Positions 2,122 to 27,083 of a stretch of 64,000 bases of DNA are shown piece after piece. A program made the position numbers and the translations under genes. Under the pieces are notes generated by a model, which saw nothing but the letters and a program-made list of their open reading frames with translations, was not told where the DNA came from and did no database searches. Position 1 is the first letter of the stretch. Each line of letters begins with the position of its first letter. Source of the DNA: Cafeteria roenbergensis (taxonomy: Eukaryota > Sar > Bigyra > Bicosoecida > Cafeteriaceae); NCBI GenBank assembly GCA_008330645.1, contig VLTN01000014.1, positions 372,001 through 436,000 of the forward strand, read 5' to 3'.

Positions 2122-5100
2122 ATGGCCAGCCCTACCCCAGATGCTCTCGTGGACGCGATCGCAGCCGGTCAGTTCGACCGGGTGCTGGCAGCCGTCGACG
2201 GCGGGCTCAGCAAGGACAGCTGCGTGGTGCGTCTGCCGATGGGCTGCTGTGGGGCAGGCTCGTGGGGAACCCTGCCAGCGGATCGGCCAGGCGTCAAGAA
2301 TGGGCGTTTGCATGTCGGGGCTTGCGGCCCGGGTGCGCGGGGGCACGCCCGGTGCGAACAGGCGGCTGCGCTGGCCGAATGCAGCTCGACTCGTGCTCGA
2401 AGTTTTCACTGCGATTTCTTGCCTGCAGTGCGGGCGCCCGCTGATCCTTGAGGCAGCAGATGCCGGAGGAAAGGCCCTTGTAGAAGGACTGCTGGACCGT
2501 GGCGCGGACGTGGCGAAGAAAACGCCAGTGAGCGGCAGCAAGCAGAAGCTTGGCAACGGCTGCGCCGAACCACACGCTGGTCAACTGCATTGTCCCCTGA
2601 GCTTGGGCGTGGTGCAGAGGCTCACCATGCCGAAGTCGCTTGGCCTGCACAGGGAATGGGGGGCGCTGTAGCGGCCAAGGTGGCGACTGTGGTGTCTGTG
2701 CGTGTTGGATGCTTTGCGGTGAGAGTGCAGGACGGTTGGACGGCGGTCATGGTGGCTGCACGGAACGGCCACGAGTCGACAGTGGGGCTGCTGCTCGACC
2801 GCGGCGCCGATATGGAGGCGCGGGAAGTGGTGAGCACGTTGTGTTGGTCCGTCGCAGCCGCGGCGGAGCGTGTCCCGGTGTCCGCCTCGGGCGGGGTGTG
2901 CGCGCGTTCGGCGTTTGACGGCCGCGGGCAATGAACGGGAGGCAGCCTTTGCTGGGGCCCTGCGGCTTGCGCGCGCTGTCCGATGCGGCGTGGCTGCGGC
3001 GGACGCTGGGTGGCGGTCGCGGTGGGGTGGCGGCACGGCGTGGCGTCGGCCTGGCGGTGGGGCGCTCAGGCGAGGTGGCGGGCGCAGGTGGCGGTGGGGC
3101 GCCGGGCGTGGTGGCGCATGGCGTGGAGCGGACTGTAGCGTGTGGGTGGCTCGCTGGCGGGGCCGGGGGTCGCAGCCATGGGTGGCTACGGGGGCTGGGG
3201 CGGCTGGGGAGGGGCGGCCTGTTCGGCAGCCGTGACGGCGTCCGGCGGAGGCGCGGGTGCGGGTGCGGTTCGGCTGGCTGGAGGGAGTGTGTGTGTGTGT
3301 GCGGTGTGTGCTCGGCATCGTGCTTGATGGCTGGCGTGTGGCTGTGGCGCGGGGCGGTCGGTGGGGCGAGGGCATGATGTGCCGGGGCGGCCAAGGTGGC
3401 GACTGTGGTGTCTGTGCGTGGTGGGTGCCTTGCGGTGTGAGTGCAGAACGGCTGGACGGCGGTCATGGTGGCTGCACGGAACGGCCACGAGTCGACAGTG
3501 GGGCTGCTGCTCGACCGCGGCGCCGACGTGGATGTGCGGGAAGCGGTGAGCACGTTGTGTTGATCCGTCGCAGCCGCGGCGGAGCGTGTCCCGGTGTCCG
3601 CCTCGGGCGGGGTGTGCGCGTGTTTGGCGCTGGCCGGATGCGGGCAGTGAGCCGGAGGCAGCCATTGCTGCGGCCCTGCGGCTTGCGCGCGCTGTCCGAA
3701 GCGGCGTGGCTGCGGCGGACGCGGGGTGGCGGTCGCGGTGGGGAGGCGGCACGGCGTGGCGTCGGCCGGGTGGTGGGGCGCTCAGGCGAGGTGGCGGGCG
3801 CAGGTGGCGGTGGGGCGCCGGGCGTGGTGGCGCATGGCGTGGAGCGGACTGTAGCGTGTGGGTGGCTCGCTGGCGGGGGCGGGGGTCGCAGCCGTGGGTG
3901 GGTGTGGCGGCTGGGGAGGGGCGGGCCTGTTCGGCAGCCGTGACGGCGTCCGGCGGAGGCGCAGGCGCGGGTGCGGTATGGCTGGCTGGAGGGAGTGTGT
4001 TTGTGTGTGTGTGTGCGGTGTGTGCTCGGCATCGTGCTCGATGGCCGGCGTGTGGCTGTGGCGCGGGGCGGTCGGTGGGGGCAGGGCATGATGAGCCGGG
4101 TCGGCCAAGGTGGCGACTGTGGTGTCTGTGCGTGTTCGGCGCTTTGCGGTGTGAGTGCAGGACGGCTGGACGGCGGTCATTGCGGCTGCACAGAACGGCC
4201 ACGAGTCGATAGTGGGGCTGCTGCTCGACCGCGGCGCCGATATGGAGGCGCGCAACAAGGTGAGCACGTTGTGTTGATCCGTCGCAGCCGCGGCGGAGCG
4301 TGTCCCGGTGTCCGCCTCGGGCGGGGTGTGCGCGTGTTCGGCGTTTGACGGCTGCGGGCAGTGAGCGGGAGGCGGCCTTTGCTGGGGCCCTGCGGCTTGC
4401 GCGCGCTGTCCGATGCGGCGTGGCTGCGGCGGACGCGGGGTGGCGGTCGCGGTGGGGAGGCAGCACGGCGTGGCGTCGGCCTGGCGGTGGGGCGCTCAGG
4501 CGAGGTGGCGGGCGCAGGTGGCGGTGGGGCGCCGGGCGTGGTGGCGCATGGCGTGGAGCGGACTGTAGCGTGTGGGTGGCTCGCTGGCGGGGCCGGGGGT
4601 CGCAGCCATGGGTGGGTGGGTGGGGAGGGGCGGCCTGTTCGGCAGCCGTGACGGCGTCCGGCGGAGGCGCGGGTGCGGGTGCGGTTCGGCTGGCTGGAGG
4701 GAGTGTGTTTGTGTGTGTGTGTGCGGTGTGTGCTCGGCATCGTGCTTGATGGCTGGCGTGTGGCTGTGGCGCGGGGCGGTTGGTGGGGGCAGGGCATGAT
4801 GAGCCGGGTCGGCCAAGGTGGCGACTGCGGTGTCTGTGCGTGGTGGGTGCTTTGCGGTGTGAGTGCAGGACGGCTGGACGGCGGTCATGGTGGCTGCACA
4901 GAACGGCCACGAGTCGACAGTGGGGCTGCTGCTCGACCGCGGCGCCGATGTGGAGGCGCGCAACAAGGTGAGCACGTTGTGTTGATCCGTCGCAGCCGCG
5001 GCGGAGCGTGTCCCGGTGTCCGCCTCGGGCGGGGTGTGCGCGTGTTCGGCGTTTGACGGCTGCGGGCAGTGAGCGGGAGGCAGCCTTTGCTGGGGCCCTG

Positions 5101-8100
5101 CGGCTTGCGCGCGCTGTCCGAAGCGGCGTGGCTGCGGCGGACGCGGGGTGGCGGTCGCGGTGGGGAGGCAGCACGGCGTGGCGTCGGCCTGGCGGTGGGG
5201 CGCTCAGGCGAGGTGGCGGGCGCAGGTGGCGGTGGGGCGCCGGGCGTGGTGGCGCATGGCGTGGAGCGGACTGTAGCGTGTGGGTGGCTCGCTGGCGGGG
5301 CCGGGGGTCGCAGCCATGGGTGGCTACGGGGGCTGGGGCGGCTGGGGAGGGGCGGCCTGTTCGGCAGCCGTGACGGCGTCCGGCGGAGGCGCGGGTGCGG
5401 GTGCGGTTCGGCTGGCTGGAGGGAGTGTGTGTGTGTGTGCGGTGTGTGCTCGGCATCGTGCTTGATGGCTGGCGTGTGGCTGTGGCGCGGGGCGGTCGGT
5501 GGGGGCAGGGCATGATGTGCCGGGTCGGCCAAGGTGGCGACTGTGGTGTCTGTGCGTGTTCGGCGCTTTGCGGTGTGAGTGCAGAACGGCTGGACGGCGG
5601 TCATGGTGGCTGCACGGAACGGCCACGAGTCGACAGTGGGGCTGCTGCTCGACCGCGGCGCCGACGTGGATGTGCGCGAAGCGGTGAGCACGTTGTGTTG
5701 GTCCGTCGCAGCCGCGGCGGAGCGTGTCCCGGTGTCTGCCACGGGCGGGGTGTGCGCGTGTTCGGCGTTTGACGGCTGCGGGCAGTGAGCGGGAGGCAGC
5801 CTTTGCTGGGGCCCTGCGGCTTACGCGCGCTGTCCGAAGCGGCGTGGCTGCGGCGGACGCGGGGTGGCGGTCGCGGTGGGGAGGCAGCACGGCGTGGCGT
5901 CGGCCTGGCGGTGGGGCGCTCAGGCGAGGTGGCGGGCGCAGGTGGCGGTGGGGCGCCGGGCGTGGTGGCGCATGGCGTGGAGCGGACTGTAGCGTGTGGG
6001 TGGCTCGCTGGCGGGGCCGGGGGTCGCAGCCATGGGTGGCTACGGGGGCTGGGGCGGCTGGGGAGGGGCGGCCTGTTCGGCAGCCGTGACGGCGTCCGGC
6101 GGAGGCGCGGGTGCGGGTGCGGTTCGGCTGGCTGGAGGGAGTGTGTTTGTGTGTGTGTGTGCGGTGTGTGCTCGGCATCGTGCTTGATGGCTGGCGTGTG
6201 GCTGTGGCGCGGGGCGGTCGGTGGGGGCAGGGCATGATGTGCCGGGGCGGCCAAGGTGGCGACTGTGGTGTCTGTGCGTGGTGGGTGCTTTGCGGTGTGA
6301 GTGCAGAGCGGCTGGACGGCGGTCATTGCGGCTGCACAGAACGGCCACGAGTCGACAGTGGGGCTGCTGCTCGACCGCGGCGCCGACGTGGAGGCGCGCA
6401 ACAAGGTGAGCGCGTTGTGTTGATCCGTCGCAGCCGCGGCGGAGCGTGTCCCGGTGTCTGCCACGGGCGGGGTGTGCGCGTGTTCGGCGCTTTGCGGTGT
6501 GAGTGCAGAACGGCTGGACGGCGGTCATGGTGGCTGCACGGAACGGCCACGAGTCGACAGTGGGGCTGCTGCTCGACCGCGGCGCCGACGTGGAGGCACG
6601 CAACAAGGTGAGGGCGTTGTGTTGACTCGTCGCAGCCGCGGCGGAGCGTGTCCCGGTGTCTGCCACGGGCGGGGTGTGCGCGTGGTCGGGGCTTTGCGGT
6701 GTGAGTGCAGGACGGCTGGACGGCGGTCATGGTGGCTGCACGGAACGCCCACGAGTCGACAGTGGGGCTGCTGCTCGACCGCGGCGCCGACGTGGAGGCG
6801 CGAGAAGTGGTGAGCACGTTGTGTTGGTCCGTCGCAGCCGCGGCGGAGCGTGTCCCGGTGTCTGCCACGGGCGGGGTGTGCGCGTGTTCGGCGTTTGACG
6901 GCTGCGGGCAGTGAGCGGGAGGCAGCCTTTGCTGGGGCCCTGCGGCTTGCGCGCGCTGTCCGATGCGGCGTGGCTGCGGCGGACGCGGGGTGGCGGTCGC
7001 GGTGGGGAGGCAGCACGGCGTGGCGTCGGCCTGGCGGTGGGGCGCTCAGGCGAGGTGGCGGGCGCAGGTGGCGGTGGGGCGCCGGGCGTGGTGGCGCATG
7101 GCGTGGAGCGGACTGTAGCGTGTGGGTGGCTCGCTGGCGGGGGCGGGGGTCGCAGCCGTGGGTGGCTACGGGGGCTGGGGCGGCTGGGGAGGGGCGGCCT
7201 GTTCGGCAGCCGTGACGGCGTCCGGCGGAGGCGCGGGTGCGGGTGCGGTTCGGCTGGCTGGAGGGAGTGTGTTTGTGTGTGTGTGTGCGGTGTGTGCTCG
7301 GCATCGTGCTTGATGGCTGGCGTGTGGCTGTGGCGCGGGGCGGTCGGTGGGGCGAGGGCATGATGTGCCGGGGCGGCTAAGGTGGCGACTGTGGTGTCTG
7401 TGCGTGTTCGGCGCTTTGCGGTGTGAGTGCAGGACGGCTGGACGGCGGTCATGGTGGCTGCACAGAACGGCCACGAGTCGACAGTGGGGCTGCTGCTCGA
7501 CCGCGGCGCCGACGTGGATGTGCGCGAAGTGGTGAGCACGTTGTGTTGATCCGTCGCAGCCGCGGCGGAGCGTGTCCCGGTGTCTGCCACGGGCGGGGTG
7601 TGCGCGTGTTCGGCGTTTGACGGATGCGGGCAGTGAGCGGGAGGCAGCCTTTGCTGGGGCCCTGCGGCTTGCGCGCGCTGTCCGATGCGGCGTGGCTGCG
7701 GCGGACGCGGGGTGGCGGTCGCGGTGGGGAGGCATCACGGCGTGGCGTCGGCCTGGCGGTGGGGCGCTCAGGCGAGGTGGCGGGCGCAGGTGGCGGTGGG
7801 GCGCCGGGCGTGGTGGCGCATGGCGTGGAGCGGACTGTAGCGTGTGGGTGGCTCGCTGGCGGGGCCGGGGGTCGCAGCCGTGGGTGGGTAGGTGGGTGGG
7901 GAGGGGCGGCCTGTTCGGCAGCCGTGACGGCGTCGGGCGGAGGCGCGGGTGCGGGTGCGGTATGGCTGGGGTCCATGTGTGTGTGCGGTGTGTGCTCGGC
8001 ATCGTGCTCGATGGCCGGCGTGTGGCTGTGGCGCGGGGCGGTCGGTGGGGCGAGGGCATGATGTGCCGGGGCGGCCAAGGTGGCGACTGTGGTGTCTGTG

Positions 8101-11100
8101 CGTGGTGGGTGCTTTGCGGTGTGAGTGCAGGACGGCTGGACGGCGGTCATGGTGGCTGCACAGAACGGCCACGAGTCGACAGTGGGGCTGCTGCTCGACC
8201 GCGGCGCCGATATGGAGGCGCGCAACAAGGTGAGCACGTTGTGTTGGTCCGTCGCAGCCGCGGCGGAGCGTGTCCCGGTGTCCGCCTCGGGCGGGGTGTG
8301 CGCGTGTTCGGCGTTTGACGGATGCGGGCAGTGAGCGGGAGGCAGCCTTAGCTGGGGCCCCGCGGCTTGCGCGCGCTGTCCGAGCGGCGTGGCTGCGGCG
8401 GACGCTGGGTGGCGGTCGCGGTGGGGAGGCGGCACGGCGTGGCGTCGGCCTGGCGGTGGGGCGCTCAGGCGAGGTGGCGGGCGCAGGTGGCGGTGGGGCG
8501 CCGGGCGTGGTGGCGCATGGCGTGGAGCGGACTGTAGCGTGTGGGTGGCTCGCTGGCGGGGCCGGGGGTCGCAGCCATGGGTGGCTACGGGGGCTGGGGC
8601 GGCTGGGGAGGGGCGGCCTGTTCGGCAGCCGTGACGGCGTCCGGCGGAGGCGCGGGTGCGGATGCGGGTGCGGTTCGGCTGGCTGGAGGGAGTGTGTTTG
8701 TGTGTGTGTGTGCGGTGTGTGCTCGGCATCGTGCTCGATGGCTGGCGTGTGGCTGTGGCGCGGGGCGGTCGGTGGGGCGAGGGCATGATGTGCCGGGGCG
8801 GCCATGGTGGCGACTGTGGTGTCTGTGCGTGGTGGGTGCTTTGCGGTGTGAGTGCAGGACGGCTGGACGGCGGTCATGGTGGCTGCACAGAACGGCCACG
8901 AGTCGACAGTGGGGCTGCTGCTCGACCGCGGCGCCGATGTGGAGGCGCGAGAAGTGGTGAGCGCGTTGTGTTGATCCGTCGCAGCCGCGGCGGAGCGTGT
9001 CCCGGTGTCCGCCTCGGGCGGGGTGTGCGCGTGTTCGGCGTTTGACGGATGCGGGCAGTGAGCGGGAGGCAGCCTTAGCTGGGGCCCCGCGGCTTGCGCG
9101 CGCTGTCCGAGCGGCGTGGCTGCGGCGGACGCTGGGTGGCGGTCGCGGTGGGGAGGCATCACGGCGTGGCGTCGGCCTGGCGGTGGGGCGCTCAGGCGAG
9201 GTGGCGGGCGCAGGTGGCGGTGGGGCGCCGGGCGTGGTGGCGCATGGCGTGGAGCGGACTGTAGCGTGTGGGTGGCTCGCTGGCAGGGGCGGGGGTCGCC
9301 GCCGTGGGTGGGTGGGTGGCTACGGGGGCTGGGGCGGCTGGGGAGGGGCGGCCTGTTCGGCAGCCGTGACGGCGTCCGGCGGAGGCGCGGGTGCGGGTGC
9401 GGTTCGGCTGGCTGGAGGGAGTGTGTTTGTGTGTGTGTGCGGTGTGTGCTCGGCATCGTGCTTGATGGCTGGCGTGTGGCTGTGGCGCGGGGCGGTCGGT
9501 GGGGGCAGGGCATGATGAGCCGGGGCGGCCAAGGTGGCGACTGTGGTGTCTGTGCGTGGTGGGTGCCTTGCGGTGTGAGTGCAGAACGGCTGGACGGCGG
9601 TCATGGTGGCTGCACAGAACGGCCACGAGTCGACAGTGGGGCTGCTGCTCGACCGCGGCGCCGACGTGGAGGCGCGCAACAAGGTGAGCACGTTGTGTTG
9701 ATTCGTCGCAGCCGCGTCGGAGCGTGTCCCGGTGTCCGCCTCGGGCGGGGTGTGCGCGTGTTCGGCGTTTGACGGATGCGGGCAGTGAGCGGGAGGCAGC
9801 CTTAGCTGGGGCCCTGCGGCTTGCGCGCGCTGTCCGATGCGGCGTGGCTGCGGCGGACGCGGGGTGGCGGTCGCGGTGGGGAGGCATCACGGCGTGGCGT
9901 CGGCCTGGCGGTGGGGCGCTCAGGCGAGGTGGCGGGCGGAGGTGGCGGGCGCAGGTGGCGGTGGGGCGCCGGGCGTGGTGGCGCATGGCGTGGAGCGGAC
10001 TGTAGCGCGCGGGTGGTTCGCTGGCGGGGCCGGGGGTCGCAGCCATGGGTGGCTACGGGGGCTGGGGCGGCTGGGGAGGGGCGGCCTGTTCGGCAGCCGT
10101 GACGGCGTCCGGCGGAGGCGCTGGCGCGGGTGCGGTTCGGCTGGCTGGAGGGAGTGTGTTTGTGTGTGTGTGTGCGGTGTGTGCTCGGCATCGTGCTTGA
10201 TGGCTGGCGTGTGGCTGTGGCGCGGGGCGGTCGGTGGGGCGAGGGCATGATGTGCCGGGGCGGCTAAGGTGGCGACTGTGGTGTCTGTGCGTGGTGGGTG
10301 CTTTGCGGTGTGAGTGCAGGACGGCTGGACGGCGGTCATGGTGGCTGCACAGAACGGCCACGAGTCGACAGTGGGGCTGCTGCTCGACCGCGGCGCCGAT
10401 ATGGAGGCGCGCAACAAGGTGAGCACGTTGTCGTGATCCGTCGCAGCCGCGGCGGAGCGTGTCCCGGTGTCCGCCACGGGCGGGGTGTGCGCGTGGTCGG
10501 CGTTTGACGGATGCGGGCAGTGAGCGGGAGGCAGCCTTTGCTGGGGCCCTGCGGCTTGCGCGCGCTGTCCGATGCGGCGTGGCTGCGGCGGACGCTGGGT
10601 GGCGGTCGCGGTGGGGTGGCGGCACGGCGTGGCGTCGGCCTGGCGGTGGGGCGCTCAGGCGAGGTGGCGGGCGCAGGTGGCGGTGGGGCGCCGGGCGTGG
10701 TGGCGCATGGCGTGGAGCGGACTGTAGCGTGTGGGTGGCTCGCTGGCGGGGCCGGGGGTCGCAGCCATGGGTGGGTGGGTGGGGAGGGGCGGCCTGTTCG
10801 GCAGCCGTGACGGCGTCCGGCGGAGGCGCGGGTGCGGGTGCGGTTCGGCTGGCTGGAGGGAGTGTGTTTGTGTGTGTGTGTGCGGTGTGTGCTCGGCATC
10901 GTGCTTGATGGCTGGCGTGTGGTTGTGGCGCGGGGCGGTCGGTGGGGCGAGGGCATGATGTGCCGGGGCGGCTAAGGTGGCGACTGTGGTGTCTGTGCGT
11001 GGTGGGTGCCTTGCGGTGTGAGTGCAGGACGGCTGGACGGCGGTCATGGTGGCTGCACGGAACGGCCACGAGTCGACAGTGGGGCTGTTGCTCGACCGCG

Positions 11101-11439
11101 GCGCTGACGTCAAAGCCACGAATTCCGTAAGTTGCCCTTGGTTTCGGTTTCGGCTGCCCTCCTCTTGCCGCAGGTGAACAAAGGTTTCTGCCATTGAGCC
11201 GTCCATATTGCACAGTCACCGGCGTTGCTTGCCCGCTGGTTTCGTGAATCCTGGCGCTGAGCAATGCGCCGCATGTTTGCGTGGAATTCTCTTTGTGGTG
11301 TTCGCAGGCCGGAAACTCTGCTCTGTCCGTTGCCGCCAATGCCTCGATAGTTAGGTTGCTCGGGCAGGCAGACTGCTTCCAACGGTGGATTCGGCGCGCG
11401 ACGCTGGCCATGTGGCGCCAAGCCTGTGACTTGAACTGA
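2122..11439 (+). CDS. Ankyrin-repeat protein encoded by 17 exons; 14 tandemly multiplied single-repeat exons
   Basis: Proposed exons: 2122-2226, 2429-2527, 2731-2829, 3447-3545, 4161-4259, 4869-4967, 5585-5683, 6307-6405, 6509-6607, 6711-6809, 7433-7531, 8131-8229, 8858-8956, 9585-9683, 10320-10418, 11028-11126 and 11308-11439. All introns are phase 0 with GTGAGC/GTGCGT/GTAAGT donors and CAG acceptors, and every join stays in frame to a TGA, giving 573 residues. Exon 1 has a good start context (ACCATGG). Exons 2-16 are 99 bp each and encode one 33-residue ankyrin repeat of the type [20 protein letters not shown] followed by LLDRGAD. Exon 2 is a diverged repeat, exons 3-16 are nearly identical, and the last exon has half a repeat plus a short tail ending QACDLN. 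Ankyrin repeats bind protein partners; the target is unknown. No membrane segment or other domain is visible. Inverted repeats flank the gene. The exon structure is read by eye, but 16 consistent phase-0 joins make it convincing. Confidence 0.85.
2731..11027 (+). repeat. Tandem array of exon-plus-intron units (99-bp exon, about 0.6-kb intron)
   Basis: Thirteen units, each a 99-bp ankyrin exon followed by a near-identical intron, fill this span. Intron lengths are 617, 615, 609, 617, 623, 103, 103, 623, 599, 628, 628, 636 and 609 bp. All start GTGAGC and end GTGAGTGCAG. Long introns share blocks in the same order: a GC-rich 5' part, a central G-rich tract, a GT-dinucleotide run, and a 3' block ending in the acceptor. 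The two 103-bp introns (6406-6508 and 6608-6710) keep only the outer parts. Introns look as conserved as exons, so the whole unit, not just the coding repeat, has been copied or homogenised. Confidence 0.9.
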
Positions 11440-11552: not shown

Positions 11553-12215
11553 GTGGCTATAGATACGGCGCGGCGGGGACCACACGGGGTCGCCCGAGGA
11601 ACAGGAGGGTGGGTCAGTTCGGTAGCCGGTTGGGTTCGTATTTGTCCGCAGACATAGATTCCACACCAACAAACAGACGAAAGCTGACCTGAGTGGGCGT
11701 TGAGAGGCCGCTTGTTGGTGGAGGACTGGTGTTGACTCAAATGGCTTAAGTTCGGCGCGGCGGGGACCGCACGGGGTCGCCCGAGGGACGGGAGGGAGGG
11801 GTCAAACGATAGAATCGAGCACACGCACACCACTCGGGGCGCGCGCGTACGGCGGGTACGGGTGCGGTGCGGCCGGAGAGCCCACGCGGGCTCGAACCGG
11901 TGTGCCCGCCCAAAGGGCGAGCTTGCGAGCGGGTCGGATGGCCCGCGGTTGCCGTGAGGCAGAGCCGGGGTCATGTGATCGAGACCGCTCACGCGCTAGT
12001 CGGAACGCATGCGCGCGGCGGGAACGGGATACGGCCGGCGAGCCCCCCCACGGGGGCTCGGGCCGGAGTGCTCGCCCAGAGGGCGGGCTTGCGAGCGGGT
12101 CGGGATGGCCCGCGCCTGCCGTGGGGCAGAGCGGGCCCGGTGTTGTTGCCACATCTGAAGGCGGCCTCACAACTCGAGGGGACACAGCACAAGATTTACA
12201 TCACAAACAGCGCGC
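11553..12215. repeat. Right repeat block (diverged Ngaro-associated sequence), inverted partner of 1.4-1.95 kb
   Basis: Two copies of a terminus motif (TGGCTATA or TGGCTTAA, then CGGCGGGGACC and CACGGGGTCGCCCGAGG) begin near 11553 and 11740. Bases about 11610-11700 are an inverted piece of Ngaro terminal segment A (compare 16480-16545). Bases about 11871-11970 and 12032-12135 are two diverged tandem copies of a hairpin-rich segment containing GCTTGCGAGCGGGTCGG. The block from 11740 is matched in inverted orientation by about 1650-1945. It looks like an old fragmentary element. No intact coding frame belongs to it. Confidence 0.65.
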
Positions 12216-12735
12216 CCTGTCCGGTAACGCCTCCGATTCGCCCTGGTGCGTGTGATCGTAGGGGAGTGGTGATTACGCATCCAGCAGTGGCCAAATGGGC
12301 ACCTGTTAGGTGTCCGGCGCCAGCGGGCTGGGAGTGGCAGTGCCTTGCTCGGAGATAGCACCCACTGGGGCACTGAAACCTCGCAAGCCACCTCCCAGCC
12401 TGCCGCGGGATGCGCGGGCGGGCTACGAATGCGGCTTTGCTCTCACACAACCTCAACGCCGACCGCAACGGGCCTTGGAGTGCTGTGCGAGGCACGGAGG
12501 GCAAAGCGAAGCGCACGCTGCGCGCGCCTTGCCGGAGAGCTGCTTGTCTTGGCCGCCGGGGCAGGCGGGTATACTAGAGCTCGGGACCCTCTGAGTCACG
12601 CCGGGCGCCCCCCCAGCACGCTGTGGGGAAGCCGCGTAGACCAGGAGAGTGTCGGGACGATGCCAGATGGCTCGTCTGTTTGTTGGGGTGGAGTCTACGT
12701 CTGCGGACAAGTATGAGCCCAACCGGCTACCCAGC
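12216..12735 (-). mobile_element. Older Ngaro terminal-repeat fragment (B followed by A on the + strand)
   Basis: Bases 12216-12407 correspond to segment B and 12408-12735 to segment A of the complete element at 16017-22879, in the same orientation but visibly diverged. It is a relic of an older insertion of the same family, without its coding part at this place. It abuts the 3' end of the unknown minus-strand gene. Confidence 0.75.
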
Positions 12736-15596
12736 GCGAGGCTCGGTATTGCCTGTGAAGGGGTCCCACCACTGGCCCGGCTCTGTGGGCCTGCAGGAGG
12801 GTTTTGGAACACATCCAGTCTGGGGCTTCAGCAGCTCGTCGGCAGAAGCACTCAAGGTCTGGCCGGCAGAACCTTTCCTGCCGGTGCACCGGTGCTGGGA
12901 GGGTCTCTCAAGGTCACTCGATATTGGCTCTGGGGCATCGTCATAGCTGGATGTAGCTCCATAAAGGCTAGACTGGGCGGCCTCCTTTGGAATCGCCTCT
13001 GCTTTGCTGTGCGGCACAGGGACATGCAGGGAGCTTCGAAACGACATCTCTTCCGAAGCGGCTGCTCCGTGAGAGTCAGTCACATGAGCTGGCCTTGGGT
13101 CCCGAGGGTAGCACTGACCCATTCGCAGAATCGAAGCCTCTGCCTCGTCAAATGCGTCCAGAGCGCTCAACAGCAATTCAGCGTCTGGCCGACGGTGGGT
13201 ACCGCCGCTGGGGGAGCTGGGTCGCCGTCGCATTGCTGACCAACCCGTCAAACACAGGGCAGACCCCAACCTTGTGGCGGCAGCTTCGAGGCTTGCTGTT
13301 TCAGGCCTCCAACTTCCGCACTTGTAAAGGTGGCACCGGGCATCGTTGGCAGCACTGTTCAGTCGTGACGCGCTGCTGATGGAGAGCATCAACGCCAGCG
13401 CTGAGGGGTCCACCGCCAAATCCGGCAAACTTGCATGGGCTGCGCTTGGGCTCGCTTCCGGTGGGCCGCTTATGGGTTTGTTGACCTCAGCGCGAAGTCC
13501 CTGCAAAATTGTGCTCAAATCAGGAGCTGCAGAACTCTTGGAGCCGCCGAGTTCGCCGCAGAACTCGTGCAGAAGGCCGCTGTCGACGGCCTTTCGAAGG
13601 AGACTTGCGGTTTTGCGTTCAGGACAGTGCTCAGCTTGGGATCCCTCTCCGTGAGAGCCCGCGCAGGCGGCTGTGCATCCCTCATCGCCATCCGTGTCCC
13701 TTACCTCGCCTTCGCCCGCGCCTGGTCCGGTGGCTGGACTGCCGCTTCCGGCAGCACTTGCGGCCGCCGCAGCAGCTGACCTGTCCAACCTGTCTAGCTG
13801 GTCGGTGTCGTGATAATTTCCGGCAAGGCATTGTTTGTCAGGCCTGGCACTCCCCACAACCGACGTAGCCTGCCCCGTGCCTCGCCCGTCTGCCACGCCA
13901 GTCGGTCGCGCCGTCGCCCAAGAAAACTCATTGTCCAGAAATGCCTTGTACTCAGCCTCCAGGTTTCCAATGTCCACGCTCGGCCAAGGTACATGCTCCG
14001 CATCTGAAGGCGGTACGAGCAAATCCTTGGCCTTGGTTGCCACAGCATTGCATGTCTTCGTCTCGCTCTCCAGGAACTCGACCACTTTGGGTGCTGCTCC
14101 GTATTCTCCCCGTGCGATCTTGGCAACCCTCTGGGCAGCCAGCACGATCGGAGACCGCGAAATAGAGAATTCTGTCGGCCCACTCTCGCGCTCCAGCGCC
14201 ATAGCCGCCATCAGAGCCGCCCTGGCAGCGTCGAGAGCCATCGACGCGACGTGAACAGCAGTCGCAGCTGTTTCCGAACTGGGGCGAGTCGCTACGAGGT
14301 TAACTGCGTGGGCGGCCAGAGAAGCTGCGACGACGGACGCGTTTGCTGCCCGCCGGGCCATCGAGAGCCGATTCACAGGCCGCGCTTCGTCTTGGCAGGC
14401 TCTGGGGAATCGCCGCTTGCCGCCCGTGACTGGGACTTCTGTCAGGGTGCACCTCGCATCGTGTCGTCGGCGGTTCAACGGGCAGCAGTTCCAGACCTGC
14501 GCGTGTTCGCCCAGCTCGGGAGCAGCTCCCTCCAGGCCGTCCAGCGATGAGTTGAGCGACGTCCACGCCACCGACTCTGGGCAAAGCAGCGCCATCGAAG
14601 GCAAGATGTACTCGCGCAAGGACACGGGGTAGTTGTACACCTGCACCAGACCGGCCTGGATGCCTTTCTGCCCCGAGGCTGTCTGCCGAATGTATTCGAG
14701 CCCCTCGAATGCAGTTTCTGCCGCTGTGAGGAGAGAGAAGCTCGGGAGCTGTGCTTCTGCTTCCGGGACCCTCACCGACGAAACCAGGTCCAAGAACTTT
14801 TTCTCAAAGTCGCTCTTGGCAATGTCCTGCATCAAGAAAGGTGCAGCTTCTGGTCGGACGAAGCTGCTCGGCCTTCGGCCACCCTCACCAAGTGGCAGGA
14901 GCAGCTCTTTTTGCCCGCTCCGCTTCACGGGCGAATTTCCCCAGGCGACAACGGGTGCCCAGGAGTGGCTTGTTGCTTTGTGCAGACCAAGGGCTTGACG
15001 AGTGAGCCAGTCCTGCAGCTCGGTCTCCAATGCTTTGATCTTGCTGCGTTTCTCTCTCGTGACGTTGATGGGCACGACGCCGTGAACCACGAGGTCTGCC
15101 ATCTCGCAGCCGGTCGAGAGCTCAGTGTCCTTTGCGTGGTCGAGAGCTCTGCCCAGCGCCGCCTCAAAGTACTGCAGCGGGTCGGTCGCCATGTCGAGTC
15201 CGCAAGTCTTTTGTGTGGGCAACTCGACCTTGCCTGCCTTGAGCAGAGGAATTCGCATTGTCGCGTCGGCCATCGGGCAACGAATGAGCCGAGCGGACCA
15301 AACGTACAGGGCGCCGATGGTGCAGTCCACTGCGAAAGCAGGCGCCTGCGAAGACCGAGTTTGGCACGCGGGCAACAAGGACATGGCGAGTGAGAACTCC
15401 ACCTCGGGGCCGCGGGGGAGCAGACGGGTCCCGCTGCCTGGCCCGGGCCGCCGGAGCAGGCGCGCGGCGTCGCTCGTGGGCGCGCGCTCCCCTCTTGGAT
15501 TGGCGCTGCGCCAGCCGGCGAGCTGAAAGGCGGGCGGAGCAAGAGCCGGCTTACCCAGAGCGCCAAAACGACCAACGCCACAGCAATGGTCCGCAT
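12727..15596 (-). CDS. Unknown protein, about 950 residues, lower-GC gene between Ngaro sequences
   Basis: A long minus-strand frame ends in TAG at 12727-12729. I do not recognise a family. A plausible start is ATG at 15596, with a hydrophobic N-terminus (MRTIAVALVVLALW, 15596-15555), then a 32-base GTAAGC...TTTCAG interval (15554-15523), then the long frame from 15522. The very short intron is tentative. Visible stretches that look like real protein include FAVDCTIGALYVWSARLI, TREKRSKIKALETELQDWL, an Ala-rich helical part, and a Ser/Gly/Pro-rich second half. Base composition is nearer 60 % GC than the 70 % of neighbours, which hints at a different origin or weaker constraint. The stop lies inside the end of the older Ngaro fragment, so the natural C-terminus may have been lost to that insertion. 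The young Ngaro element sits about 420 bases upstream. It could also be cargo or an ORF of an undescribed element. Confidence 0.45.
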
Positions 15597-16016
15597 GCTG
15601 CCGGCCAGTCGGGCCTGGCTGGCTGGTACGCTGCGGGCGCAGAGCAAAGCGCTCGGCGGATCGAGCCGTGTTGCACGCCACCCTCTCGTTGCTCACAGGG
15701 GCCGCCCCCTCGGCCCGGCTCTCGGTCACGGGGGCAGGAACAGCGGGAGAGCGACCCCGAGGCCTCGTCCGCGCGCCGCGGGGGGCCGCGCTGCGGGCCG
15801 ACGGGGCCCATGCAAGCGGGCCGCACGAGCGCGCCACGAACCACGCCGCATCTGTGCAGCTCGGGCTCCTCAGCCCTCGCGCCCAGGGACTGCCCCGCAA
15901 CGAGGCACTCGCAGAGGCTTGCACTCACGGTTCGAAGCAGCGAGTGCGCGGCCACGTGGCCCCGGGGCGCGGATGTGCGGCGCTGCGCCGCGGCTCTCGG
16001 CGCGGCAGTTTTCCCC
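15597..16016. other. GC-rich spacer upstream of the unknown gene
   Basis: This is the presumed 5' flank of the minus-strand unknown gene, ending at the Ngaro boundary. The unknown gene's frame stays open across it, but composition looks like random GC-rich sequence. No gene was recognised. Confidence 0.4.
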
Positions 16017-16203
16017 CTGTCCGGCAACGCCTCCGATTCGCCCTGGTGCGTGTGATCGTAGGGAATGGTGATCACGCATCCAGCAGTGGCCAAATGGGCA
16101 CCTGTTAGGTGTCCGGCGCCAGCAGGCTAGGAGTGGCAGTGCCTTGCTCGGAGTCTGCACCCACAGGGGCACTGAAACCTCGCAAGCCACCTCCCAGCCT
16201 GCC
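16017..16203 (-). repeat. Ngaro split repeat, segment B2
   Basis: This 187-bp outer segment at the element's 3' end is repeated, apparently exactly, at 16546-16732. It marks the left boundary of the insertion on the plus strand. Confidence 0.85.
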
Positions 16204-16214
16204 GCGGGATGGGC

Positions 16215-16545
16215 GGGCGGGTCACGAATGCGGCTTTGCTCTCACACAACCTCAAAGCCGACCGCAACGGGCCCTGGAGTGCTGTGCGAGCGTTCGCACG
16301 GCACGGCGGGCAAAGCGAAGCGCACGCTGCGCGCGCCTTGCCGGCGAGCTGCTTGTCTTGGCCGCCGACGCAGGCGGGTAGACCAGAGCTCGGGACCCTC
16401 TGAGTCACGCCGAGGGCAGCCCCCAGCACGCTGTGGGGGAGCCGCGTAGCCCAAGAGAGTGTCGTGACGATGCCAGATGGCTCGTCTGTTTTGTCGGGGT
16501 AGAATCTACGTCTGCGGACAAATATGAACCCAACCGGTTACCGAA
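16215..16545 (-). repeat. Ngaro split repeat, segment A2
   Basis: This internal segment of about 331 bp matches A1 at 22548-22879 with no difference noticed. Together with B1 and B2 it forms the B1-A2-B2 tail typical of Ngaro elements. Confidence 0.85.
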
Positions 16546-16732
16546 CTGTCCGGCAACGCCTCCGATTCGCCCTGGTGCGTGTGATCGTAGGGAATGGTGA
16601 TCACGCATCCAGCAGTGGCCAAATGGGCACCTGTTAGGTGTCCGGCGCCAGCAGGCTAGGAGTGGCAGTGCCTTGCTCGGAGTCTGCACCCACAGGGGCA
16701 CTGAAACCTCGCAAGCCACCTCCCAGCCTGCC
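16546..16732 (-). repeat. Ngaro split repeat, segment B1
   Basis: This 187-bp segment lies next to the 3' end of the recombinase region and is the second copy of B2 (16017-16203). Confidence 0.85.
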
Positions 16733-16874
16733 TCCGCGCCACCCATTGATTGAATGGCCACTGGGCACCCTCCGTAGAACAAGGTTGAGGGTACGGAGAA
16801 GGGTGCCGCGTGCCGCTGCCTGCCGGGACGGGAGGTGCGGCACGCCGGAGCGGCGAGGAGGTTGCGCCTGTGGG

Positions 16875-17992
16875 TCAGAAATGGTGTCGTCCCCCGGTCG
16901 CATCCTCCTCGCGTAAGAGAAACGGTGCGTTCTCTCTGATGTATGAGACTACACTGGCAGGATTGTGCCATCGTCCCAGGCTTGCGATGCGTATGACTGA
17001 CGCCTTCCTTGAGGTGTAAAGCCAAGTGGCGCCCGAGATGCGGAAGGCGTGCCCCGTCGTCGGGTGGCCGTCGCGGCGGTGGCGGGTCACCAGCTCCGCC
17101 ACCATACGCTTCGTCACCGCAAGCCCCGTCTTGTTCAGCCAAGCGGGACCCGGCCCGCGCCTCGCTCGCGTCCTGACGTATTCGCGCACCAGGAACGGGG
17201 AGCCGCAGGACGCCGGGTTGTAGAACGCCGAGGCGGGATCCGCCGAGACGGTCACGCGCTCGCCTTTTGGTGACATTTTGTCTTGGATCGTCACCGAGTA
17301 CGCCGGCCAGCTTGAACCTTCATGCAGCGTGAGCGCCTGGATTTGGAGTGCTCGACGCCCGGCAGGGCACGCCTCCTCTAACAGGCTGCCGAGGCGGCAG
17401 AGGCCGTCCCAGGCTATCGCACACACACCGTCCGAATCGCTAGGTCGGTGTATGGGTCTGACGCCGCAGCCATGATCGTGGAAGGGCCGAAGGGAATGCG
17501 GGCGTCAAACTTGGGCTCGGCCATGCGATTCATGCGTGCCACGATGAGCTTGATGGCCGAGTGCTTGTCCGACATCGGGTCGTCTGCCTCGTCAAAGGCG
17601 AACCGCGCGAACCTTCTCACCGCGAAGAGGTAGCTGACCAGGCTCGACGGGGACAATTCCGTGTCTCCCGCCATTAGCGCCCGGGCGAAGATCGACGCTG
17701 CCGCCAGCGTGATCCGCCCCGAGCGGGGAAACCTCGCGCCCTTTGCTGCGCAGAGCGCTCGCCACGCCCTGACAGCCGCCACCACCGTGGGCCGGCCTGT
17801 TCTAACGTCCGTGAGGGCCAGCATGGCCGCGAACACGTGGGAGTTGCCGTCCCGGTCCAGGACGCTCAGCAGCCGTGTGGCTCGTCCACCGGGACGACCG
17901 TCGGTGGCAGCACGAGCTTGGGCCACGCAGGCGGCGCAGTCGCGCAGAAAGAGCTCGCAGCCGTCGAAAGACACCTCGTACCCAGCTTCCAC
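16875..17992 (-). other. Ngaro part: tyrosine recombinase region
   Basis: This region encodes the phage-integrase-type tyrosine recombinase that replaces a DDE integrase in DIRS/Ngaro elements. Near the end of the protein sequence are the catalytic box II pattern His-x-x-Arg (GHAFRISGATWL) and a downstream LGRW followed by the likely nucleophile Tyr in SYIR. It overlaps the end of the reverse transcriptase region. Treated as part of the element above; more than one frame is used. Confidence 0.75.
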
Positions 17993-20214
17993 AAGGGCCC
18001 CTCGATGGCCACCTGCGGGGAAAGGCGGCTCAGGCGGTCAGCACAGATATTGTCAACGCCAGCGATGTGGCTCGCATCTAGGCGCACCCGGTTGTGCAGC
18101 AGGAACTCGGCAAGCTCCTCGGCCAGGTCATCGGCGTGCCCGGCCGAGAGCGATGCCCGGAACCTTGACGACACAGCCTGAGTGGCCACGTTGTCGGTCA
18201 AGAGGTGCACGGACGTCCCCGCAACTTGGTGCCTGAAGTGCTGGAGCGCACGCGTCGCGGTCAGCAGCTCGGAGCGGGTACTCGATCCAATGTGTTCCGG
18301 CCACTCGAAGCGGGCCACCTGCCATGGAGATCCCGGATCATGCAGGTCTATCAGCACCGCTCCGCCCGCTTGCCCACAGGCGTCTGTGGCAAGCAGATAC
18401 TTCGGCCTAGGGTCGGGCCCGCGGGCTCGGTCCGCCACGTCCCGGACCCGCACTGAGGGAGATCGGTGGAGCAGCCTGGACAAGGCCTTCGCAGCGCTCT
18501 CCGCTCGGCTTGTCCAGCGAAACCGGCGACGAGGCGCACGTGCCGCCGGAACGATCTCTTGGGCCAGCCGTCGAATCCATGCCTTGATGGGCAGGCACAG
18601 GCAGGAGAGCCAATAGGCTCGCCCCAGCATCGGTTCGTGGACCGAGACGGAGATGCGACCTCCGGCTCGGACTGAGTCCAGTGCCCCCAAGAGCTTCTGT
18701 AGGGTGGATGGTTTCACCGACACCAGCGTCAGGTCCGATCGGGAGGAGAAGCGCAGCCCCACGTAGTCCGCCACATGGGCAGGGGGTGGGCATTTCTCCA
18801 CGGCCACTGGTAAGCCAAGCTGCCCGCAGAGTTCCGCCGCACGATCCCGGTCCGCGCGAGCGCCCGCCTCGTCGCAGGCCGACACCAGCAAGATGTCGTC
18901 CGCGTACACGGCCACCCCCGTGTGGTCCGTGCGCAAGGCGTCTCCTAGCGCTGCCGTGGCTGCGCACAGCGCGGACGCGCTGAATCTCGCACCCATCGGC
19001 AGCGCCACGTTCATAAGGGTGACCTTTCCCGAGGCTATGGTCAGCAGGGGCGTGGCTCCCGCCCCCGCCGACAGCTGTCTGTAGGCGGCCTGGATGTCCA
19101 TGGGCGCCAGGAACAAGGGTCCGTTATGCTTGTCCTCCATGTCAGCGATGAGCTGGCACAGCTCCGCGGCCGATGGGACCTTCGGGAACTCGAGGAACGA
19201 TGTGTCTACTCGCGAGTTCACTCCGCGGAGGGCCGCGGGGGCCGCCGATGCTGAGTTGTCCTGGACCATTCGTGCCCGGGGCCGGCCGTCTGCTCCCAGG
19301 CCTGACTTGGGCACCAGCTTACAGGGGGCCGTGCGGCGCAGGAGTTGCTTGGGCCAGTCCGATGGCACTGGCAGCGACCAGCCGCGCGCGACTTCGTCCG
19401 CCAGAGCGCTCTCCAACTGCGCCTCCGTGAACCCGGGCGACCGATAGTTGGGTGGACGGCCACGCGGTCGTACTGGTTCCACCACGGCCGTGTCCGCGCC
19501 GATCAGGGCCGTCGCAAACGGTTCCCGCCAGCGCCGCGATACGGGTCTCAGCAGCTCAAGCACGCTAACTGGGTTAATCCCTCCGGCAGCTCCGTCTGTT
19601 CCCCAGAGGATGGGGTGCGCCGCCAGAGCAGTGTGGAGAAACCCGTCCGACGCTGCCGCCCCGGGGTCCAGTGCTACCGCGTTACGCGCAGCATCGACTG
19701 CTTGCTGCAGCACCCCAGAGGCACGCAGGCGCTCCAAGGCCGCCCGCAGCTGATGCGGCGCTACCCGTTCGGGGTCCATCCCTATCAGTGAAAGAAGCCG
19801 CCGCGCCCGTTGGTATTGACGCAGGCCCGTCTCATCCGAAGCGGCCCATATCCGCCCCGTCGCTGAGCGCACCTGCCGCTTCGGACGCGGGGGGTCGTAC
19901 CGATGGCGAAGGGCGCGTAGGTACCGCCTCGCCAGCTCCAGCGTCGGCAACGGTTGGTCCCGTGCCGGCGCCGGAGCCCAGCGCGCAGCTCTGTAGCCCT
20001 CGGTCCGCGGCGTGAAGGTGGTCGTGAGCCGGTTGCCGCGGCGGCGACGCCTTCCGCCCGCACCTGGGTTCCGCCCCCGCCCCGCCGTTTGTTCTTTCGG
20101 CTGGGCCATCTCCGCCTCCGTCGTTCCTTCTTGCGCTGCCGCGGCTCGGGCCGCCACGCGTCGGGAAAGAACGGGGGGGCTGCAGGGTCTAGCCGCGAGA
20201 GGTCCGGCCTCCAC
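17866..20214 (-). CDS. Ngaro part: reverse transcriptase-RNase H polyprotein
   Basis: One open frame of 782 residues. The reverse transcriptase core shows LVPKSGLGADGRPRARMVQD, DIQAAYRQLSAG and the active-site box VYADDILLVSA. The C-terminal RNase H domain shows LLATDACGQAGG, STRSELLTATRAL and LLTDNVATQAV, which supply the Asp-Glu-Asp metal ligands, and a closing GVDNICADRLSR. The N-terminal 130 residues are Arg/Pro rich. Order and domain content match Ngaro/DIRS elements. Its 3' end overlaps the recombinase region, as is usual in this group. Confidence 0.85.
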   Translation of the reverse strand: MEAGPLAARPCSPPVLSRRVAARAAAAQEGTTEAEMAQPKEQTAGRGRNPGAGGRRRRRGNRLTTTFTPRTEGYRAARWAPAPARDQPLPTLELARRYLRALRHRYDPPRPKRQVRSATGRIWAASDETGLRQYQRARRLLSLIGMDPERVAPHQLRAALERLRASGVLQQAVDAARNAVALDPGAAASDGFLHTALAAHPILWGTDGAAGGINPVSVLELLRPVSRRWREPFATALIGADTAVVEPVRPRGRPPNYRSPGFTEAQLESALADEVARGWSLPVPSDWPKQLLRRTAPCKLVPKSGLGADGRPRARMVQDNSASAAPAALRGVNSRVDTSFLEFPKVPSAAELCQLIADMEDKHNGPLFLAPMDIQAAYRQLSAGAGATPLLTIASGKVTLMNVALPMGARFSASALCAATAALGDALRTDHTGVAVYADDILLVSACDEAGARADRDRAAELCGQLGLPVAVEKCPPPAHVADYVGLRFSSRSDLTLVSVKPSTLQKLLGALDSVRAGGRISVSVHEPMLGRAYWLSCLCLPIKAWIRRLAQEIVPAARAPRRRFRWTSRAESAAKALSRLLHRSPSVRVRDVADRARGPDPRPKYLLATDACGQAGGAVLIDLHDPGSPWQVARFEWPEHIGSSTRSELLTATRALQHFRHQVAGTSVHLLTDNVATQAVSSRFRASLSAGHADDLAEELAEFLLHNRVRLDASHIAGVDNICADRLSRLSPQVAIEGPLWKLGTRCLSTAASSFCATAPPAWPKLVLPPTVVPVDEPHGC

Positions 20215-20359
20215 CGTTCAGGACGCTGTCGGCTTCCCACCTGCGGCGGTTCCGCGTCGGTCACGTCGTCCCCCGACCTCAGACCCCGCCGCGATGGAGG
20301 GCCATGAGGCCTGAGCCAGACGTGACCGTGCAGAGCCCGATCACGCCGTCCCTGTTGGC

Positions 20360-22541
20360 TCAGGCCTCGGGAAAACCCAGTCCGAGCCGCTGGCGGAGCA
20401 ACGCCCACGTGTCTGCGGGCGATCCCGGAGGGTCGTCACCCAGCCCAAGCGCGCCAGCAATTGCTTCCGCCAGCGCGTTCGCCGTCAGGCCTCCTTTGAG
20501 CACATGTGCCATCTTGCCCTCTGCCAGAGCAGGGATCAGCATTGGGGGACGCCCCGACGCCCCCGTGCGCCGCCACAAGGACGACATGAAGTCCGATGGC
20601 GACATTCCGAGCAGCGCTGTGAACTGCCCCGTCAGCGAGGAAGAGGGCTTCTTCTGCCGCCGCGGCTGCGCGGACGTTGCTTTTGTCGCCGGAGCGGACG
20701 GTGCCGCCGCCCCCGCAGCGAGTGCGGCCTGGCGGGGCGCCGCCCGGCCTCGTCGCTCCGCCGTGGGCCGGGCCCGGCGCGCCTCTCGCCGGTCTGCATA
20801 CCGGAGGACTCGGTCGTGAACCCGCGGACCCGAGCCCCGAAGGGCGGGTCGGGGCATGAGCTCTGCGTCTGGAAGAGCTTCGTCCAGCAGGAGCCGCAGC
20901 TCAGCTCCCTCTCCGTCCGCGGGGTCCACCAGCGCCACTGCCGTTGCCGCCAGGACAACGGCAAATGCGGCCGGGCCCACTGGGATGCCTGCCGTTCGCC
21001 AGTCAAACGCCGAGGCGGCCACGGCTGTGACAGCTGCACGCAGCGCCGCCTCGGAATCCGATGCCCAGAGGTACTCCAGGGCTTCGACCGTCACTGACCA
21101 CGGGTGCTCTTGGATCTCCTGCGCCAGCAGGTGCTTAGTCTTTGTCCGCTGCGCCGCCAGCGTTGCCAGCGCCGCGACGAACAAGTCCTGTACCCGCTTG
21201 ATCGGGGGTGGCGCGCCCGCTGCTACCCAGGCAGCTGCCACAGCGTGGAGCTGGTCCTCGACCGCCGTCCGGAAGCCGCCCACCGGGGAAGGGGAGGGCG
21301 GAGTTTCGGCCCTCGCGGCCGCCTCGACCGCCGCGCGAAGGACGCATGTGGAATCAGCAAGGGGCGAGGTCTCGAGAAGCGTCGTGACCACGCTCTCAGG
21401 GACGCTCGTTATGCCAACGCCAGTCGCGACTGCAACGAGCGCCGCCATCTTCGGCGAGGGCACGTGGAGGAGTCCCGTCAGGTAAGCAAGGGTCCCTGCA
21501 TCTGCCAAGCAAGATTTCAGCTCACCTGTTGTTCGGGTGGTCGCGCCGGTGACGCGATTTCTCGCCAGATGCCTCCTTCGGCCCGCGCGGCCGGCCAGGG
21601 GTCCATTTCGCTGCCCAGGCCTCTCTGTGGGGTGAGCGCAAACGGTGAGTGCGCGGCCAGTGCCTCGCGCGCAGGCTCAGGCGGTCTCACCGAGTGAGCA
21701 GGCGAGGCCGGCAGGTCCTGCCCGCGTCGCGTCGTGTCCCAGCAGTCTGCTCCGGGCAAGTTCCGCGACGGTCGCTGTCGTGCGGGCGAGGTCCACGTCG
21801 GCGGGTACCTCATCGATGGTCCCGCCCTCTGTGAGGAGCGCATGCCCGATGGCCGCATGGAGTACGAGCCGCACGCGTTTCGCAACCTCGTCGGACTGTG
21901 CTCGCGACACGGCTTTGCAGGCCACTGTGGCCAGCACGTCGCAACAGTCGGCCGCGTTGTCGAATGACTGCCCCACAGGCGGCTGCGCGAGCGCAGCGAA
22001 GCCCGCCGTCAGGTCCGCTGCGATGGGACCCTGCCCTGTCGAGTGGGTGAGGGAAACCGTGACGGCGCGAACCTGCATCGTGACGACGTCGCCATAGAGC
22101 TCTGCCGACAACGACCGCTCGGGAGCTGCGCGCGCTCGCGACCCTGTTTCGGCCGCTGAGGCCCGCGTTTGCCGCCGCGGACGGCGCCGCTGCGACCCCC
22201 GCCCCCGCCAGCCCACGCTCCCGTGTGCGTGGGGGCGCAGGGGCGCGTGCGGTGCGCGGGGTTTCGCCCCGTGCCGCTTTGGGAAGGTGCAGCTGATCCA
22301 TGACGTGAAGGATCTTGACTAGCCAGCCGACACGCGTAAGCCTGCCCGCCCGCTGAAAATGACGGCCCAGCTCGGGCCATGTGCTAAGTATGGCGTCGGC
22401 ACTGCCCTCGCCCAGGCATTCGTCCGCCGTGAAGAGGGCCGGGCGCGGCGCCGCGGCCGAGGCGGCCGCCGCCGAGTTCTGCGCTAGTGGCAGTTTCGCG
22501 ACCGCCTCGTCCAGGGAAATGTCAAGGGGAGCCTCGTCCAT
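20360..22541 (-). other. Ngaro part: Gag-like region
   Basis: This region follows A1 and precedes the reverse transcriptase, the place of ORF1 in Ngaro elements. A clear start lies just inside A1 (MDEAPLDISLDEAVAKLPL) and a helical, Ala-rich C-terminal part ends near 20360. No zinc knuckle was noticed. Assignment as Gag-like rests on position and on the lack of any other recognisable domain. More than one frame is used across the region. Confidence 0.55.
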
Positions 22542-22547
22542 AGCTCG

Positions 22548-22879
22548 GGGCGGGTCACGAATGCGGCTTTGCTCTCACACAACCTCAAAGCCGACCGCAA
22601 CGGGCCCTGGAGTGCTGTGCGAGCGTTCGCACGGCACGGCGGGCAAAGCGAAGCGCACGCTGCGCGCGCCTTGCCGGCGAGCTGCTTGTCTTGGCCGCCG
22701 ACGCAGGCGGGTAGACCAGAGCTCGGGACCCTCTGAGTCACGCCGAGGGCAGCCCCCAGCACGCTGTGGGGGAGCCGCGTAGCCCAAGAGAGTGTCGTGA
22801 CGATGCCAGATGGCTCGTCTGTTTTGTCGGGGTAGAATCTACGTCTGCGGACAAATATGAACCCAACCGGTTACCGAAC
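22548..22879 (-). repeat. Ngaro split repeat, segment A1
   Basis: This 332-bp segment at the element's 5' end pairs with A2 (16215-16545). The outer end reads GGTTACCGAAC on the plus strand and gives the right boundary of the insertion. Confidence 0.85.
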
Positions 22880-23024
22880 GGACCGATTGATCCGCACCAT
22901 GTGCAGAGGCCCTCGAGCGCGCCTTGCCAACTCTGGCTGGCAGAGCAGAGGGCATCCAGAGGCCACAAGGAGGCGCGCACGCATCAAGACCGCCCAACCT
23001 GGCCGACGAGGCCGAGCATGCACC

Positions 23025-25736: not shown

Positions 25737-26215
25737 AGGAGGTGCTCGGCGAGAAGGTCGTCGTGTCGACCCGCCTTGCCGAGTCCCCGTGCTGCCTCGT
25801 GACCGGCGAGTTCGGCTGGTCCGCCCGCATGGAGCAGATCATGAAGGCGCAGGCCCTCCGGGACGCCTCCATGTCGACCTACATGGCGTCCAAGAGGACC
25901 ATGGAGGTGAACCCCAGCCACCCCATCGTGGTGAGCCTCCGCCAGAAGGCGGCGCACGACCGCGCCGACCGCACCGTGAAGGACCTGATCTGGCTCATGT
26001 ACGACACCGCCCTCCTCACTTCCGGCTTCAGCCTTGAGGAGCCCGTGACCTTCGCCGGCCGCATCCACCGCCTCATCATGCTCGGCCTTGGCGTCGGAGA
26101 CGACGACGAGGACGCCGACGCCGGCGCCACCGGCTCCGCGGAGGCCCTCTCGGACCTGCCCCCCCTCGACGCTGCCGAGGGCGAGGATGCCTCCGGGATG
26201 GAGGAGGTCGACTAA
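25715..26215 (+). pseudogene. 5'-truncated duplicate of the HSP90 3' end
   Basis: From [20 protein letters not shown] to the terminal MEEVD, 166 codons match the C-terminal part of HSP90, in frame and without a stop. The ATP-binding and middle domains are absent, so it cannot work as a chaperone on its own. Compared with familiar HSP90 sequences, about three residues seem to be missing between EVLGEKV and VVS; whether the intact gene shares this cannot be seen because the window starts downstream of it. Against the copy at 1-405 only a few bases differ. The left breakpoint lies near 25713 inside the LEKR1-like frame. Duplication continues through the downstream coiled-coil gene to about 27163. 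Confidence 0.85.
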
Positions 26216-26474
26216 GCGACGCCTTGCGCGCCCCCCAGGTCGCCATCGACCGCGGGGTGGCTGGACAGTGCGACGACTCGGGCTTTGAGGGCCGCGGCTG
26301 TGGCGCTCGCGGCGCCTCCCTTTGTGTGTGCCTCGGCCTCCCCCGCCTGCCATGTCCCAAACCCGACCTCCGCACTGTGATTGCCGACCGTGTAGGGCGG
26401 GCTAGCTCTTTCGCGCACACTGCGGCGCTGCCGAAGCACACGCACAAACACCATGCTTCCGATGGCTTGCCAGG

Positions 26475-27083
26475 TCATAGAAGCAAGCTGGAAAGGCCGC
26501 TGAGCTCGCGCGATGCGACTGAGAGGGATGCCGGGGCCCGGTCAGACGGAGACGCAAGCTCCAAGTGCAGCCCATGTCGCTCTGCCACGCCCGCGATGCG
26601 CTCGCTCGCCGTGCGCGCAAGAGCAGCCGTGTCGGCCAGCGCCCTCGCAGCCGACTCGGGCGCCACGCTGGTGGTGGCGGCTTCCACGGCTGCCCCAACG
26701 GCAGCGTCGACCCGGGCCTGGCGCCCGGCGCCTCGCGGGTGGCTGCGCGGCCACGAGTCGGCCAGGCCTTGCGCGACTCGCACGCGCGCGAGCGCGGCTG
26801 ATGCCCGAGCAGCGAGAGCGGCCTCGGCGCAAGCGGCGGACTCGTCGCACCCGCGGTCTACATCGTCGGCTGCCGCCTCGCACTCGCGCGCGGCGGCGCG
26901 CAGGGCGTCGGCGGCCTTGCGGGCGTTCCCGCGGAGCACATCGGCGGAGTGCTGCTTGGCAGCAGCCAGCTCCGCCGCCTCGCGCAGCGCGGACGCCTGC
27001 ACCGCGCGCGCCAAGCGCTGCAGGGGGCCGTCCACCCCGCTGCCGGCCATTTCGTCCAGGGCTGCGATCGCCGCCGCAGCCAT
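26475..27083 (-). CDS. Small alanine-rich helical (coiled-coil) protein, function unknown, copy 2
   Basis: This is the second copy of the 202-residue gene at 669-1277, with the same start, stop and length and about two residue differences. The whole frame is intact, so it may be functional. Its upstream 80 bases are shared with copy 1, but the sequence beyond about 27163 is different, so the two copies have different promoters. The neighbouring gene on the other side begins at about 27261 on the opposite strand, only 178 bases away, giving a divergent pair that copy 1 does not have. No family is recognised. Confidence 0.55.
   Translation of the reverse strand: MAAAAIAALDEMAGSGVDGPLQRLARAVQASALREAAELAAAKQHSADVLRGNARKAADALRAAARECEAAADDVDRGCDESAACAEAALAARASAALARVRVAQGLADSWPRSHPRGAGRQARVDAAVGAAVEAATTSVAPESAARALADTAALARTASERIAGVAERHGLHLELASPSDRAPASLSVASRELSGLSSLLL

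Follow-up and report, generated by a model that had tools for sequence, protein, structure and literature searches.

A predicted all-ankyrin gene of Cafeteria roenbergensis made of near-identical exon-intron units

How does a gene come to consist of near-identical exons separated by near-identical introns, and does such a gene still change its repeat number rapidly? We asked this of a locus in a 64,000-nt stretch of Cafeteria roenbergensis contig VLTN01000014.1 (hereafter, the window; 69% GC, no Ns). The first-pass annotation had described fourteen 99-bp phase-0 exons, each encoding one 33-residue ankyrin repeat; all fourteen translate in this way. It ended the array at 11027, which misses array exon 14, and the gene has three further exons. 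As predicted from the sequence, the gene comprises 17 exons and would encode 573 amino acids (Table 1). The 16 introns of this model are GT-AG and lie in phase 0 without exception.

Table 1. Positions of features in the window.
Feature	Position	Strand	Description
Ankyrin gene	2122-11439	+	predicted; ATG 2122 to TGA 11439
Exon 1	2122-2226	+	N-terminal segment of 35 codons beginning with ATG; frame open, donor GTGCGT, phase 0
Exon 2	2429-2527	+	99 bp, degenerate ankyrin-like repeat
Intron 2	2528-2730	+	3'-terminal ~60 bp homologous to 3' end of long array introns (pairwise alignment)
Array	2731-11126	+	fourteen 99-bp exons, each coding for a single ankyrin repeat, and 13 introns
Array exons 1-7, starts	2731, 3447, 4161, 4869, 5585, 6307, 6509	+	
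Array exons 8-14, starts	6711, 7433, 8131, 8858, 9585, 10320, 11028	+	
Short intron	6406-6508	+	103 bp, lacks 514 bp of long form
Second short intron	6608-6710	+	103 bp, lacks 514 bp of long form
Array exon 14	11028-11126	+	homology to other units stops at ~nt 83, the right edge of the array
Exon 17 (last)	11308-11439	+	43 codons and TGA; C-terminal half-repeat and tail
Inverted repeat	1715-2009 and 11670-11968		
Weaker extension of inverted repeat	1389-1883 and 11967-12345		
Duplicate with HSP90 gene 3' end	3-1359 and 25813-27167		
Likely LTR retrotransposon	16216-22885		
Reverse transcriptase/RNase H ORF	17869-20217	-	
Pieces related to likely LTR retrotransposon	12215-12731 and 16015-16732		
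Long open frame	12730-15924	-	1065 codons
Long open frame	27940-31254	+	1105 codons
RNA polymerase III subunit RPC2	35658-39176	-	
Direct repeat in ABCA-type transporter ORF	59850-60449 and 63237-63833		

Every array exon has GTGCAG on its 5' side; on its 3' side it has GTGAGC, except for one exon with GTGAGG and exon 14 with GTAAGT. All 14 are in frame and free of stops. The 13 array introns have intact splice-site pairs, and each contains in-frame stops, so that read-through of any one of them would end translation; the gene would presumably be spliced as modelled and expressed. Intron 2 forms the left edge of the array, and the last ~16 nt of array exon 14 lie outside the repeat homology. 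From the limits of homology at these edges, the duplicated unit would consist of the 3' end of an intron, an exon and the following intron, reaching into the next exon. Chance is no concern, because ~8.4 kb consists of ~96% identical units. The array sequence has no match elsewhere in the window.

The spliced product matched Pfam Ank_2 (E = 4.3e-175) and contains 14 separate PF00023 (Ank) stretches (E = 2.2e-125). Since a single repeat, the 33-residue translation of one exon, aligns with the PF00023 model from position 1 to 33, exon borders and Pfam repeat borders coincide. Exon 2 by itself gave no match in a Pfam search. In the whole gene model, Pfam returned no credible domain besides ankyrin, and no signalling or membrane domain; ROC-COR is absent from the model, which contains ankyrin sequence only. 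The nearest solved structures by sequence are ankyrin-1/2 and designed ankyrin proteins (DARPins), and these matches point to a helix-turn-helix solenoid with beta-hairpins. The product would thus be a 573-residue ankyrin solenoid in which 14 near-identical repeats are flanked by diverged end repeats. Viral contigs contained no exact DNA match to the gene and no confirmed protein relative, and an Rfam scan and a tRNA scan gave no matches.

Other eukaryotic genes in the window, in addition to RPC2, encode a reduced folate carrier, G6PD, nicastrin, a DUF268 protein, a protein with an HGSNAT-like domain and an ABCA-type transporter. The ORF of the last contains a direct repeat (66% identical) that presumably represents two ATP-binding halves. 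A diverged inverted repeat (83%) closely brackets the ankyrin gene, and both of its arms contain GGTTCGA(A/G)CCC, which resembles a tRNA B box; the arms are possibly oppositely oriented copies of a tRNA-derived SINE, or parts of a long-TIR element. The 3' end of an HSP90 gene, with ~950 bp beyond it, is present twice at 98.2% identity. The likely LTR retrotransposon has 338-bp ends that are 99.4% identical and encloses the reverse transcriptase/RNase H ORF. Two long open frames have no Pfam match.

Near-identity had been claimed for all 13 array introns, and it holds for 11 of them (599-636 bp; pairwise identity 93.9-98.7%, mean 96.7%) but not in length for the other two. The long introns, for example 4968-5584, contain the 12-mer GCGTGTTCGGCG twice, 514 bp apart, and because 617 minus 514 is 103, the 103-bp form would result from a deletion between these 12-bp direct repeats. 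The two short introns would go back to a single deletion, after which the shortened unit was copied, or to two separate deletions of this kind. The long form is the likely ancestor, since intron 2 shares its last ~60 bp, including sequence missing from the short form. Across the aligned units, 12 gap blocks fall in introns and no indels fall in exons. On the coding strand, the G-over-C skew of the array is 0.353 overall and up to 0.40 in 600-bp windows, against values of no more than 0.28 in the rest of the window. The array has 10 G-quadruplex motifs on this strand and none on the opposite one. Such G-rich skew could favour R-loops and recombination, although amplification of one skewed intron explains it equally well.

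Have the units exchanged sequence with one another? The eleven full-length units have 37 informative sites; 66% of the pairs formed by these sites conflict with a single tree, and the incompatibility between neighbouring sites (0.438) is lower than after shuffling (0.664; P < 0.0002). With intron sites only, this reduction was still significant at short range; when closely spaced sites were thinned, adjacent pairs alone were significant (P = 0.015-0.028) and wider windows lost significance. A GENECONV-like test was marginal (global P = 0.069). Within one unit, the closest relatives often differ among the exon, the 5' part of the intron and its 3' part. This mosaicism favours unit-to-unit exchange, and would fit short-tract conversion as well as repeated crossing-over. 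Together with the intron identity and the uniform phase 0, it bears out the proposal that the gene grew by copying of exon-intron units, whose gain or loss is neutral to the frame.

The further proposal of rapid change in repeat number fared less well. Identity between full-length units peaks at 98.0%, and a lag analysis for recent neighbour duplication showed no effect, with adjacent units no closer to each other than distant ones. Thus, the array bears no sign of a very recent unit duplication and is not freshly expanding in this genome copy.

Exon and intron divergence were compared, as the first-pass annotation had suggested. Mean pairwise diversity (pi) is 0.032 in introns and 0.034 in exon nt 1-81, but 0.231 in exon nt 82-99. 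The last six codons of the exon are therefore ~7 times more variable (P = 0.00015 with sites shuffled over the unit; 0.015% of trials reach the observed value), and pi is 0.097 at most in any 18-site intron window. Codons 28-33, together with the first residue of the repeat that follows, make up what we take from established fold knowledge to be the ankyrin beta-hairpin, the loop of which is the usual contact with binding partners. In the protein, 6 of 7 hairpin positions are variable compared with 5 of 26 other positions (Fisher P = 0.0025, a descriptive value because the variation was already known when the hairpin set was chosen), and there are 10 distinct hairpin strings among the 14 repeats. 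By hand count, the overlap of variable residues with the DARPin library positions is three of six, which is no clear excess.

For codons 1-27, pN/pS is 1.07, and hence neither purifying nor positive selection is clear; since divergence in exon bodies equals that in introns, purifying selection is invisible within the array. For codons 28-33, pN is 0.25 and pS is 0.16, so that synonymous diversity is raised too. The idea of diversifying pressure is upheld in part, in that variation concentrates in the hairpin codons, and is qualified by the synonymous variation in those same codons, which makes diversifying selection only suggestive. The raised pS would agree equally with selection and with the retention of old variants, and the hairpin signal may consist partly of older segments.

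Several alternatives can be weighed against these results. The one that survives best, which we hold to be unlikely without being far-fetched, is a receptor-like gene for recognition that is under active diversifying selection and whose unit number and hairpin order shift fast between strains. It would account for the hairpin focus, the variety of hairpin strings and the unit mosaicism, and brown-algal ROCO genes offer a precedent; however, no unit pair exceeds 98.0% identity, neighbours show no effect, pS is up along with pN, and the model has no signalling or membrane domain. The gene may nonetheless have a role in recognition. Distinctly less probable is a neutral or decaying tandem repeat, in which an old ankyrin exon was amplified with its intron and left unconstrained, and exons and introns drift and convert jointly. 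Equal diversity of exon bodies and introns and a pN/pS of ~1 in codons 1-27 agree with this, but an intact start, end exons and stop, 14 of 14 exons in frame without a stop and 13 of 13 preserved splice-site pairs do not, and the hairpin codons depart sharply from neutral expectation.

Improbable, too, is a one-gene diversity generator, in which the G-rich, strand-skewed, near-identical introns favour exchange among units and exons, given 14 interchangeable donors and acceptors, can be skipped in frame; if true, cells or strains would have many ankyrin binders of varied length and hairpin order. Arrays of ~715-bp units are difficult to assemble, and a false expansion or mixing of alleles might be suspected, but units differ by at least 2% and have many private substitutions, and both array edges resolve into diverged exons, making an artefact very improbable. 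Least credible of all are introner-type mobile introns inserted at equivalent sites of repeats that already existed, instead of being duplicated along with the exons, as near-identical introns in a single phase and position might suggest, given that exon bodies match each other as well as the introns do and no intron copy lies elsewhere in the 64 kb.

The reading we prefer, with a probability of roughly three in four, is a protein-coding, all-ankyrin gene that grew by exon-intron unit exchange, was later homogenised, and likely serves as a protein-binding scaffold. It draws on what the DNA itself displays, namely structure, frame, homogenisation, mosaicism and hairpin-focused variation. The mechanism is most likely an ordinary one, with unequal exchange of like units in symmetric phase followed by homogenisation. 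The array would have grown by unequal exchange among units with a common symmetric phase-0 exon and, given such an exon, one unit more or fewer would make the protein exactly 33 residues longer or shorter. Later exchanges, by unequal crossing-over and short-tract gene conversion, would have homogenised introns and exon bodies and brought a few hairpin variants into new combinations. For the product, the most likely role is that of a binding scaffold, with a binding surface that would be shaped by beta-hairpin residues, and the hairpin-focused variation suggests that partner choice may have been under diversifying pressure.

The elements of this gene have counterparts elsewhere. It has the 33-residue ankyrin repeat in common with the repeat domains of ankyrin-1/2 and with DARPins; natural ankyrins have strongly diverged repeats and DARPins are engineered, whereas the 14 repeats here are near-identical. 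Vertebrate ankyrin genes, too, have many 99-bp exons. Exons of human tandem-repeat proteins frequently cover whole repeat units (PMC3995336), and the contrast first drawn with most ankyrin genes was overstated to the extent that repeat proteins frequently have whole-repeat exons (PMC3995336, citing Street 2006). In brown-algal LRR-ROCO genes, as described in an excerpt of Teng 2024 (PMC11378527, citing Zambounis 2012), each LRR occupies one 72-bp phase-2 exon, exons are shuffled, and concave-face sites are positively selected. Like the ankyrin gene, these have one structural repeat per symmetric exon, a tandem array and variation at binding positions. In contrast to their LRRs, 72-bp phase-2 exons and ROC-COR GTPase part, the ankyrin gene has 99-bp phase-0 exons and no ROC-COR; it also has near-identical introns, which the excerpt (PMC11378527) does not state for LRR-ROCO.

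In spider silk genes, repetitive homogenised introns delimit the coding units and have been proposed to channel unequal crossing-over (PMC9779670). As in the flagelliform and Argiope MaSp2 genes, for which unequal crossing-over and conversion have been invoked (PMC9779670), introns of the ankyrin gene bound repeat units and are strongly homogenised within the gene. The silks are low-complexity structural proteins whose exons are larger ensemble units, whereas each exon here encodes one folded 33-residue repeat. This gene has the symmetric exon as its repeat unit, and 11 homogenised long introns with two shortened derivatives; it thus appears to unite a repeat-per-exon layout with homogenised introns, both known separately from other genes. 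In the open-licence literature, which is incomplete, no ankyrin gene turned up that had been described as having both near-identical introns and a single repeat in each exon.

With exon borders that coincide with the ankyrin unit and both array edges visible, the locus gives an unusually clean view of how a repeat protein lengthens. Its introns provide an internal yardstick of neutral change, by which diversity is seen to focus on the beta-hairpin codons. If strains differed in unit number, designed ankyrin libraries would have a natural counterpart in this gene.
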